Shown here: positions 26 to 24,438 of the stretch, in pieces
Position numbering within the stretch: position 1 is the stretch's first letter
Layout: each line of letters starts with the position of its first letter
NCBI GenBank assembly: GCA_945881835.1
Contig: CAMCVP010000001.1
Coordinates: 186,001 to 250,000 of the forward strand
Reading direction: 5' to 3'
DNA: 64,000 nt
Source of the DNA: Chryseobacterium gleum
GTDB lineage: Bacteria; Bacteroidota; Bacteroidia; Flavobacteriales_D; Sanyastnellaceae
Notes under the pieces: generated by a model
The model's input: the letters and a program-made list of their open reading frames with translations, nothing else
The model's database searches: none
What the model was told of the DNA's origin: nothing
Made by a program: the position numbers and the translations under genes

Positions 26-1447
26 TTAATTTTTTTCGAACAGTGTCACTGCCTCTAAGTGTGAGGTGTGTGGAAACTGATCAACGAAACTAATTTTCTT
101 CAAGTTATATCCTGAGAGAATAAGTGTCTCGCAATCTCTTGCTTGAGTGGCTGGATTGCATGAAATATAAACGATGCGCTTCGCGTCGAGTCCTATAACT
201 TTTCTTAGCGTCTTAGGTGAAATTCCACCACGCGGCGGGTCAAGGACAAGCGTATTGATTTGATTTTGAAATTGCGGTTGTTCCAACAAGAATTTCCCTA
301 CATCTGCTGCGAAGAATTCGATATTCGAAACGTTGTTTTCCTGGGCGTTTTTCTTTGCGTCGTCAATGGCAGCTTCCACAATGTCTACTCCTACAACCGG
401 CAACGACGTTTTCTGCGCAATGAGTTGTCCGATTGTTCCTGTTCCGCAGAACAGATCGAGGATATATCCATTTGGAACTTCTTCCGGATTGCAGTAATCT
501 ATGGCTTTGGTATAAAGTCTTTCAGCGCTTTTCGGATTGGTTTGAAAGAAGCTCTTCATGTTTACTTTGAACTTCAATCCCAATAAAATTTCTTCGATCT
601 CCGAATTTCCATAGAGCAGGTGTGAAGAGCCATTCAAAGGCTCAGCACGGTCTCCTGTGTCGTCGTTCAGCGTATGAATAATTCCTCCGCAACGCTCTCC
701 GAGTATATCTAAAACGAGTTTCACAAATCCATCGCGATCAAACTGTTCCAGTCCTTCCGATGAAGTAACAAGATTGATCAGAAGCAAGTCGTGTGTGAAT
801 GATTTTCGAACCACAACATAGCGAAAGAATCCTTGGCGTTTCGGTGGATGCCAAGCAGGAAGTCCGCTGTTTATGCAAAAGGTGCGAATGCGATGCAGGT
901 TGTTTTCGAATGTCGCATCGAAGAGACCCGATTCCGCATCCAGATTTTCAACCATCCACCATGTTCCTCTGTGCTTGAAACCTAATCCGAAATCATCGAG
1001 TTCCGTTTTGGTTGGAAGGTCATAGCGGATAGCGCTGAAGCTGTACTCCATTTTATTTCTGTAGTTCCAAACAGAAGGAGATTCAATGTATTCGTCGAAC
1101 AGTTCAGCAATGTTTTCAATTTTACCAATGCGCTTGTAGAGTTGAAGGCACGAATCTTTTTTCGCTTCGTGTTGCTTCTCTATGGGCCAAGCAGCGTATG
1201 GCGCGCCGGGAATGCGCTGGTAAGGCAAGTCTATTTCATCTGGAGAATTTTCAAGCACTTCAATCAATTTGCAATTTGCAAATCGCTTGTCGGACTTGAT
1301 CACTTGTGCACGCACGAGTTGTCCCGGGAATGTGTTTTCAACAAAAACAGTAAAATCGCCTTTGTCGGTTTTCAATAGCCCTATTCCATTGCCTCCAAAG
1401 GCAAAGCGGTCTATTTTAATGTCGAGTATTTGGTTTCTTTTTAGCAC
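26..1447 (-). CDS. rlmD: 23S rRNA (uracil-C5)-methyltransferase, RlmD/RumA family
   Basis: SAM-dependent m5U methyltransferase of the TrmA/RumA family, expected to modify 23S rRNA (U1939 in E. coli). Seen: an N-terminal TRAM-like beta segment (ILDIKIDRFAFGGNGIG), a Rossmann motif I (LDLFCGTGTIG), the substrate motif DPPRGG, and the catalytic cysteine motif YISCNPATQARD near the C-terminus. The frame stays open far upstream only because it runs into the 12-nt tandem array, which would add about 65 low-complexity residues. I choose the GTG at 1447: it precedes the conserved N-terminus and has TATATTTG exactly 4 nt upstream (1452-1459). The length of about 473 aa fits the family. Whether it is RlmD or a paralogue such as RlmCD cannot be decided by eye. 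Confidence 0.93.
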   Translation of the reverse strand: MLKRNQILDIKIDRFAFGGNGIGLLKTDKGDFTVFVENTFPGQLVRAQVIKSDKRFANCKLIEVLENSPDEIDLPYQRIPGAPYAAWPIEKQHEAKKDSCLQLYKRIGKIENIAELFDEYIESPSVWNYRNKMEYSFSAIRYDLPTKTELDDFGLGFKHRGTWWMVENLDAESGLFDATFENNLHRIRTFCINSGLPAWHPPKRQGFFRYVVVRKSFTHDLLLINLVTSSEGLEQFDRDGFVKLVLDILGERCGGIIHTLNDDTGDRAEPLNGSSHLLYGNSEIEEILLGLKFKVNMKSFFQTNPKSAERLYTKAIDYCNPEEVPNGYILDLFCGTGTIGQLIAQKTSLPVVGVDIVEAAIDDAKKNAQENNVSNIEFFAADVGKFLLEQPQFQNQINTLVLDPPRGGISPKTLRKVIGLDAKRIVYISCNPATQARDCETLILSGYNLKKISFVDQFPHTSHLEAVTLFEKN

Positions 1448-1451
1448 GGGG

Positions 1452-1459
1452 CAAATATA
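1452..1459 (-). promoter_or_regulatory. -7-like element TATATTTG just before rlmD
   Basis: TATATTTG on the minus strand matches the Bacteroidota -7 consensus TAnnTTTG. It ends 4 nt before the GTG start of rlmD, so the transcript would start at or next to the start codon. The upstream -33 region falls inside the tandem array and no clear TTTG is seen there. Confidence 0.55.
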
Positions 1460-1470
1460 TGTGCGGAGCA

Positions 1471-1638
1471 AGATACTTTGTAAGATTCTTCGAAAGATGC
1501 TTTGCAAGATACTTTGTAAGATACTTTGTAAGATTCTTCGAAAGATGCTTTGCAAGATACTTCGTAAGATTCTCCGAAAGGTCTCGCGAAGCGTCTTGTG
1601 CAACATCTTGTGTAACATCTCGCGTAGCGTCTTGCGAA
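1471..1638. repeat. 12-nt tandem array with covarying micro-palindromes (14 units)
   Basis: Fourteen consecutive 12-nt units without an indel fill the divergent rlmD/Septknot intergenic region. The first nine read AGA plus a 9-nt palindrome: TAC-TTT-GTA, TTC-TTC-GAA, TGC-TTT-GCA and variants with TTC or TCC loops. The middle stem base changes (A, T, G) together with its partner (T, A, C). The last five units follow the same period in a shifted form; on the minus strand they read GC-nnn-GC or GT-nnn-AC joined by five-base AAGAY or GAGAY linkers. Because 12 is a multiple of 3, the array keeps several frames open, so neighbouring genes appear too long at their 5' ends. Confidence 0.92.
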
Positions 1639-1674
1639 GCATTGATTATCTTCGTTGAAACAAAAAACACAGTT

Positions 1675-2010
1675 ATGAAATCGATCGTTCTACTTTTTGC
1701 ATTGTGCGCATTTGGAATTAGCGCGAATGCTCAGAAGATTTATTCAGTAGATGCTGAATACAAGGCGCAGGTGAAGGTTTATGTGGTAGACGCCGAGTAC
1801 AAGGCAGATTTGTTGGTTTACAAGGAGAATGCGGAATACAAAGCGGGCAACAACGACGGACGTTGGTATTTCGTAGATGCAGAATACAAGGCAAATAAGA
1901 AAATATATTTTGAAGATGCCGAGTACAAAGCTGATTTGAAAATTTACTTTGTCGACGCGGAGTACAAAGCAGGTTGGAAGAATGCTTCTAAGAAGCAGTT
2001 ATTGTACTAA
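1675..2010 (+). CDS. Exported Septknot/DUF6150-like repeat protein
   Basis: Small exported protein of 111 aa. An N-terminal signal peptide (MKSIVLLFALCAFGISANAQ) is followed by six copies of a short motif close to VDAEYKA, mostly 12-14 residues apart and alternating with KVY/KIY strands. This pattern resembles the DUF6150/Septknot family, an all-beta repeat fold; that assignment is from memory of the motif and the biochemical role is unknown. The start at 1675 is chosen because it begins the signal peptide; the frame is open further upstream only through the tandem array. Its 3' end overlaps a convergent micro-ORF by 23 bp. Confidence 0.8.
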   Translation: MKSIVLLFALCAFGISANAQKIYSVDAEYKAQVKVYVVDAEYKADLLVYKENAEYKAGNNDGRWYFVDAEYKANKKIYFEDAEYKADLKIYFVDAEYKAGWKNASKKQLLY

Positions 2011-9925: not shown

Positions 9926-10126
9926 ATGAGCGAAACAACAATAAATTATGCCCGTGCCTTCGAAGAGTTGCAGGCCATTGTAACGGAAATTGAATTGGGA
10001 CAAATTACAGTAGACATTTTATCTGAGAAGGTGAAACGCGCTTCCGAGTTAATTGCAATCTGTAAAACGAAATTGTCTTCGACAGAGGAGGATGTGAATC
10101 AGATTTTGAAGGAACTGGAGGGGTAG
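9926..10126 (+). CDS. xseB: Exodeoxyribonuclease VII small subunit
   Basis: 66-aa all-helical protein of the XseB family: YARAFEELQAIVTEIELGQI followed by the second helix (ILSEKVKRASELIAICKTKL). These two helices form the coiled coil that binds the XseA stem. Its length is typical. It follows xseA by 5 bp. The stop codon (10124-10126) is followed immediately by a short copy of the micro-hairpin repeat. Confidence 0.93.
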   Translation: MSETTINYARAFEELQAIVTEIELGQITVDILSEKVKRASELIAICKTKLSSTEEDVNQILKELEG

Positions 10127-10163
10127 ATTCTTCGAAAGATGTTGCACAAGATTGCTTCGCAAA
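10127..10163 (+). repeat. Short micro-hairpin chain after xseB
   Basis: Directly after the xseB stop codon come three short palindromes: TTC-TTC-GAA, GT-TGC-AC and TGC-TTC-GCA, joined by AGAT and AAGAT linkers. It has the same design and period as the array at 1471-1638. It may act as a weak 3' structure between xseB and the next gene. Confidence 0.75.
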
Positions 10164-10183
10164 GTTGTCCTTAATATTGCACA

Positions 10184-24250: not shown

Positions 24251-24402
24251 GTTGTATGAATTAAATTATTTGTCGCGTTGCTTTCAATAGCCTCGCCGAG
24301 GAGCAAATTCGGTAATTATTTCCGAATTGGAACTGATCTATGTGTCTAATAGGCAGATGGATATTGGATTGCACGACGAAAAGTCTTGATTGTTATCAGT
24401 TT

Positions 24403-24438
24403 GCGCAGCATCTTGTGAAACATCTTGCGCAGCATCTT
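24403..24438 (-). repeat. Short micro-hairpin chain after crcB
   Basis: Read on the minus strand, 12 nt after the crcB stop, the units are GC-TGC-GC, GT-TTC-AC and GC-TGC-GC joined by AAGAT linkers (12-nt period). The stems covary (GC/GC against GT/AC). Same family as 1471-1638 and 10127-10163. The rest of the 199-bp clpB-crcB gap holds nothing else recognisable. Confidence 0.75.

Follow-up and report, generated by a model that had tools for sequence, protein, structure and literature searches.

The 12-nt repeats between rlmD and a DUF6150 gene form one among hundreds of such arrays in the genus, in which palindromy is kept and sequence is not: Watson-Crick pairing is strict on both strands, and arrays are present or absent, in frame, within unrelated housekeeping genes. 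The array behaves as if it were a self-spreading DNA element selected for shape and not for sequence. We put the chance at a little better than even that it is a copy of a DNA mini-hairpin array that moves and expands and can propagate only in palindromic form, in effect a genus-specific dispersed repeat.

A sequence-only reading had reported 14 indel-free 12-nt units at 1471-1638 of the window (the whole 64,000-nucleotide stretch analysed), with the middle stem base of units 1-9 varying together with its partner. Both statements are correct and the coordinates are exact, although the array is slightly longer, spanning 1462-1641 with 15 palindromes, all of them (15/15) perfectly paired. Reading the flanks added the TGCGGAGCA hairpin (1462-1470), 5' of the first AGA, and TGCGAAGCA (1633-1641) completes the last palindrome on the right side. 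The true unit joins a 3-nt AGR spacer, here AGA or occasionally AGG, to a perfect 9-nt palindrome with a 3-bp stem and a 3-nt loop. The middle pair distinguishes TACTTTGTA, TTCTTCGAA, and TGCTTTGCA. The last five units, overlooked before, repeat this element in inverted orientation; their outer (C-G/T-A) and inner (C-G/T-A) pairs covary and distinguish CGCGTAGCG from TGTGTAACA.

Table 1 Arrays, genes, and putative promoter elements in the window.
Feature	Position	Strand	Details
rlmD-type 23S rRNA (uracil-5-)-methyltransferase	26..1447	-	likely start GTG at 1447-1445
Putative -7 box TATATTTG	1452..1459	-	just upstream of the likely rlmD start
Left half of the array, ten 9-nt mini-palindromes	1462..1578	+	AGA-separated; order TGCGGAGCA, TACTTTGTA, TTCTTCGAA, TGCTTTGCA, TACTTTGTA, TACTTTGTA, TTCTTCGAA, TGCTTTGCA, TACTTCGTA, TTCTCCGAA
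Turning point, AGG next to TCT	1579..1584		spacers of both orientations back to back, no hairpin between
Right half of the array, five units in opposite orientation	1585..1641	-	TCT-separated; GNA loops on the + strand; order on + CGCGAAGCG, TGTGCAACA, TGTGTAACA, CGCGTAGCG, TGCGAAGCA
Putative -7 box TATCTTCG	1647..1654	+	near match to TAnnTTTG on the DUF6150 side
DUF6150 protein gene	1675..2010	+	PF19647, E 3e-32
Second array	10117..10165	+	begins in the xseB stop codon (TAG+A); TTCTTCGAA AGA TGTTGCACA AGA TTGCTTCGCAA
Third array	24402..24437	-	TGCGCAGCA, TGTGAAACA, TGCGCAGCA with TCT on +; downstream of a crcB/fluC-like gene

Pairing across the genus was examined in 0.71 Mb of fetched DNA by taking all runs of at least three AGR spaced at period 12 and leaving the intervening 9-mer unconstrained. 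All three Watson-Crick pairs were present in 1,017 of the 1,309 AGR-anchored 9-mers, against a random expectation of 1/64, and in 108 of the 315 distinct ones, whereas other anchors gave about 0-7% fully paired 9-mers. Read in other registers, the same arrays yielded 31/1,135 (AAG anchor) and 6/537 (GAT). There were 20 stem types and many loops, and mutual information among distinct 9-mers was highest at positions 1-9, 2-8, and 3-7. A covariation alignment of 50 diverse three-unit windows, picked by array membership from arrays with at least a third of their units paired, had 95.3% of its cells paired and two-sided changes at 9/9 pairs. Double changes occupied 128 cells compared to 38 after shuffling, and the covariation score reached 0.746, as opposed to 0.197 for shuffled and at most 0.259 for slid registers.

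Only 2 of 450 cells in this alignment were G-U wobbles. Over all units, C-A/A-C mismatches (30) were not rarer than T-G/G-T mismatches (20), which leaves no one-strand RNA signature. Loops of the TNC type on the AGA strand, equivalent to GNA on the TCT strand, occurred in 739 of 1,016 fully paired units. Since C-GNA-G is the loop of extra-stable DNA mini-hairpins, this suggests the TCT strand as the folding strand. When the window array was folded as ssDNA or as RNA with nearest-neighbour methods, the result was no better than for shuffles (z -1.4 to +1.1); a 3-bp stem is therefore marginal on its own unless it is helped by GNA-loop stability or by a protein, and we make no claim of thermodynamic stability.

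The pairing rule is also maintained between species. Comparison of 252 orthologous run pairs with both flanks matching, comprising 151 distinct non-identical unit pairs, revealed 152 changes at the 3 loop sites and 50 that break a pair at the 6 stem sites, along with 38 compensated doubles, some of which may come from unit misalignment. Breaking changes are thus about six-fold rarer per site. The earlier proposal that this is not a normal minisatellite, which would have fallen had relatives broken pairs as often as they changed loops, is strongly upheld by these counts and by the covariation. The number of units differed in 174 of the 252 run pairs, and the arrays of close species have gained, lost, and replaced units. 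At the rlmD locus itself, copy number varies greatly across species: about 12, 10, and 35 AGA/TCT units are found in G004, G005, and G006, respectively, and a degenerate remnant in G007. G001 carries AGG-spaced units with other stems, despite flanks that are 93.9/99.4% identical in the pair table.

Inter-AGR stretches of 11 nt, found at array ends, formed 4-bp arms in 15 of 19 distinct cases, those of 13 nt formed 5-bp arms in 6 of 13, and those of 15 nt had arms of up to 6 bp; all of these lengthened units keep triloops. The even lengths 12 and 14 almost never paired (1/10 and 0/11), which points to growth by single-base-pair steps. The 12-nt period is thus not the constraint, and palindromes of 8 and 10 nt, their loops 2 or 4 nt long, were present as well. 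Orientation is also patterned. Hairpin-flanked AGR directly followed by YCT occurred 30 times in the set and the reverse, YCT followed by AGR, 0 times, and in multi-unit runs the AGA half lay left of the TCT half in 25/25. As a universal rule this order had to be demoted: 21 single YCT-hairpin-AGR junctions and composite arrays that repeat the motif make it only a tendency.

Arrays recur throughout the genus, with clear examples in eight of nine lake-type Flavobacteriales genomes and a degenerate remnant in the ninth; the related records are Flavobacteriales MAGs, several apparently from lakes. The window array as a DNA query gave 24 matches in its own genome and matched 8/8 other genomes of the genus (one weak match in G007), with no match in the 11 other genera tested. 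A search pattern that fixed only the spacers and the adjacent Y...R had 54 placements in G000 and up to 122 (G006), as compared with 3-4 for the reversed control in those two genomes. A second subfamily uses AGG spacers. These counts rest on searches and on fetched stretches biased to array-bearing sites, and array numbers are underestimated, since contig ends within or near arrays (G004:C49/C11, G002:C81, G003:C70, G005:C20) indicate that arrays may break short-read assemblies. Outside the genus, searches with a pattern and a covariance model turned up no convincing array in 199 order genomes, in 399 order genomes (covariance model), or in 395 genomes of the phylum. The only good match (G381:C308:1-1565, L321) lies on a short contig of a MAG from another family and is probably contamination; this contig encodes the same T9SS-type C-terminus protein family as array-bearing genes of the genus. 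Remaining matches outside the genus looked like chance, and viral contigs gave no match to one specific pattern. The MAG record CAMDFE010000113.1 (L061), titled Chryseobacterium gleum, has an rlmD 96% identical to that of this genus and is probably mislabelled.

The two further arrays in the window also vary between species. Downstream of xseB, where TTGCTTCGCAA has a 4-bp stem, the array of G000 comprises three units, and that of G004 is larger and of the AGG/CCT type. The site of the third array holds about 18 units in G006; G001 was rejected as a clean empty site here because about 85 bp including the array are missing. Locally distinct stem repertoires also occur, as in the sub-arrays at L187 3686-3768 and L215 about 2144-2170, where ACCGAAGGT, ACGGAACGT, and ACTGAAAGT, separated by TCT, share an A-T outer pair and have inner pairs of three types. 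Separate purine-rich coding repeats (GRQEGRQEVREVKRGEEE) lie near arrays at L203 1-170 and in L227, in a gene of unknown function, and their length varies between species.

Arrays also interrupt genes, which we named by sequence recognition: shikimate dehydrogenase (aroE), phosphoglucomutase, acetyl-CoA synthetase, a glycosyltransferase, a GNAT protein, exopolyphosphatase (Ppx), a cyclase/formamidase-like protein, FtsA, aspartokinase, and lipoproteins. In closely related species these arrays are absent or differ in number, with insertion or polymorphism between species in aroE, PGM, ACS, GT, cyclase, and Ppx. Most in-gene sites are too diverged for exact ends; in the GNAT gene the insertion is clean, the filled allele being exactly 36 nt (3x12) longer beside a native CAAGA. 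Both array orientations are found in messages, and arrays within genes are nearly always AGR-sense and read in the GAT/GGT frame, so that they encode (D/G)-x-x-(Q/K/E) tetrads. Coding-array lengths are mostly in-frame (12, 18), and 14-nt units are almost all non-coding. An A-T second pair, which would create TAA in that frame, was seen 0 times in coding arrays versus 59 times elsewhere, i.e. a unit survives within a gene only if it is free of stops. The residue at codon 4 is set by that at codon 2 (codon 2-codon 4: A/V-Q, S/C-K, P/R/L/H-E), a coupling that stems from DNA pairing and not from protein needs.

At the rlmD locus, the array lies between two divergent putative promoters. The Bacteroidetes -7 box has the consensus TAnnTTTG, and TATATTTG matches it. 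The rlmD-side TAnnTTTG is kept in G001 and G004-G007 and the TATCTTCG box is unchanged in position in relatives; both are likely -7 boxes. The array may alter the spacing or upstream contacts of these flanking promoters, and a secondary effect on both is possible. As an explanation of the array, however, the suggested role as a topology- or protein-binding element or as phase-variable spacing of a divergent promoter region is not supported, because the same arrays are also found downstream of genes and, whatever the orientation, between them, as well as in frame in unrelated housekeeping genes. Being open in several frames, the array leads ORF callers to add a spurious 65-aa N-terminus to rlmD (26-1642, minus strand); this extension, a translation of the array, is probably not real. 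On the other strand, array codons could be fused in frame to DUF6150 (1459-2010). The DUF6150 protein (1675-2010) is itself made up of DAEYKA motifs that recur about every 39 nt (TRF).

How such arrays might arise can be outlined as follows. A unit would need to fold as an ssDNA hairpin in order to be copied, whether within its array or to a new site that contains AGR. The likeliest copying steps would be slippage promoted by the hairpin or fold-back synthesis, either of them between AGR direct repeats at replication, or the action of an enzyme that cleaves and joins hairpin ssDNA. Living arrays would then be recently copied, intact palindromes, compensatory pairs would mark copy competence and not cell function, and the rlmD-locus array would be a passenger that the cell tolerates between two divergent promoters. 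That arrays disperse to new sites is inferred from presence and absence between species. More tentatively, and with a chance that we place clearly below even, the arrays may represent a repeat class that inherits secondary structure alone, its AGR-plus-palindrome units being copied and spread by an ssDNA-hairpin process, encoded by the cell or by an element, that responds to pairing and not to sequence; the resulting arrays would invade genes in frame and evolve by base-pair steps. A RAYT/Y1 transposase as universal mobiliser is rejected by genome distribution: Y1/RAYT-type transposases are absent from the array-rich G002, G003, G005, and G008, and G003 is 96% complete with one of the richest array sets.

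Among the alternatives, we give a modest chance to a purely mutational palindrome maker, in which fold-back template switching or polymerase hairpin elongation copies one arm onto the other with neither host selection nor element mobility. It would account for compensation, base-pair-step growth, and the turning points where AGR meets YCT. Usual template-switch substrates are far longer than 3-bp arms, which counts against it, and on its own it explains neither why hundreds of unlinked loci share one unit repertoire nor why the arrays are restricted to one genus. Polymerase elongation of hairpin-forming tandem repeats in vitro, as mentioned in PMC13061963, speaks in its favour. Structured RNA, i.e. 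strings of transcript hairpins in UTRs and mRNAs acting in stability, termination, or regulation, is unlikely: the pairs covary as in structured RNAs and arrays often lie near gene ends, yet G-U is almost lacking, G-T mismatches are not in excess over C-A, the RNA folds no better than shuffles, Rfam gave no match, messages contain both orientations, and close species differ in presence and absence. The last point is also a poor fit to the possible general case of hairpins selected for a cellular function.

Slightly less probable still is that the palindromes are duplex sites for a symmetric DNA-binding or nucleoid protein. Arrays are palindromic, evenly spaced, and often intergenic, and that of the window lies between two putative -7 boxes; a sequence-reading dimer should nevertheless preserve letters, which is at odds with 20 stem types and many loops, and neither arrays within coding genes nor arms that lengthen in base-pair steps around an unchanged triloop fit such a protein. 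We regard protein-level adaptation as very improbable. In-frame insertions in enzyme loops and lipoproteins would agree with selected D-x-x-Q/K linkers or surface loops, but about half of the arrays are intergenic and obey the same pairing rule, which already disfavours it, close species have empty alleles, and protein sequence explains neither the codon-2/codon-4 coupling nor the stem pairing. The least credible explanation is an ordinary, recently homogenised minisatellite whose pairing is a by-product of one palindromic founder. Higher-order 24/36/48-nt periods inside the window array show that normal tandem duplication also acts; the compensated changes across 20 stem types and the slid-register and shuffle controls speak against it all the same, and the depletion of breaking changes among orthologues refutes it.

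Covariation this strong is normally taken as proof of a functional RNA; here it marks DNA mini-palindromes, intergenic as well as coding, with no wobble pairs. Dispersed DNA repeats can therefore mimic RNA covariation, a warning to RNA-discovery pipelines, and such arrays create false ORF extensions, a warning to gene callers. The arrays also offer a natural system for studying in vivo copying promoted by very short DNA hairpins, the route by which palindromic selfish DNA gets into protein-coding genes, and the ways in which enzymes cope with linkers that are inserted rapidly.

No description of such arrays was found in the literature searched, and each known system shares only some of their features. 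As in a minisatellite/VNTR, tandem copy number varies between relatives, whereas a sequence-conserved unit drifting without a pairing rule is not what we observe. Rfam-type structured RNAs share the covariation but not the lack of G-U tolerance or of better-than-shuffle folding. The d(GCGNAGC) DNA mini-hairpins have a C-G-closed GNA triloop on a GC stem, with a Tm of up to 78 C for GCGAAGC (PMC4686876); this is a physical property and not a repeat family, and many array units have weaker A-T stems. Ogata and Miura (2000, as cited in PMC13061963) reported that DNA polymerases elongate hairpin-forming tandem repeats in vitro. There, too, growth needs self-complementary short units, although that process is in vitro and PMC13061963 describes no in vivo genomic family. 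REP/BIME elements, mobilised by TnpA_REP (RAYT), are likewise short, high-copy palindromes, recognised as folded ssDNA (PMC8266576). In contrast to the arrays with their AGR plus 9-nt palindrome, REPs are about 20-40 nt long, carry a GTAG motif that the arrays lack, and are mostly extragenic, and their cognate Y1 tyrosine transposase is missing from several array-rich genomes. PARCELs are tandem dyad-symmetry repeats inside ORFs, dispersed in genomes (PMC2996958). They differ in their 75-nt units, protein-level conservation (DUF285), and horizontal spread, while the arrays are 12-nt, without protein conservation, confined to one genus, and also intergenic, and encode tetrads in place of the 25-residue amphipathic DUF285 repeat. 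Closest are the Rickettsia palindromic elements (RPE), which PMC10969869 and PMC2996958 (citing Ogata 2000, 2002, 2005) summarise as palindromic selfish DNA, in frame in unrelated housekeeping genes and intergenic; coding palindromes are mentioned there for Wolbachia and Methanocaldococcus as well. Our arrays also insert in frame into unrelated protein-coding genes. RPEs, however, are single elements of about 100-150 bp with a conserved family sequence and encoded peptide, whereas the arrays consist of tandem 12-nt units of variable copy number that are defined by pairing and not by sequence, with 108 distinct perfect palindromes of 20 stem types. The arrays thus work like RPEs but are not RPEs.
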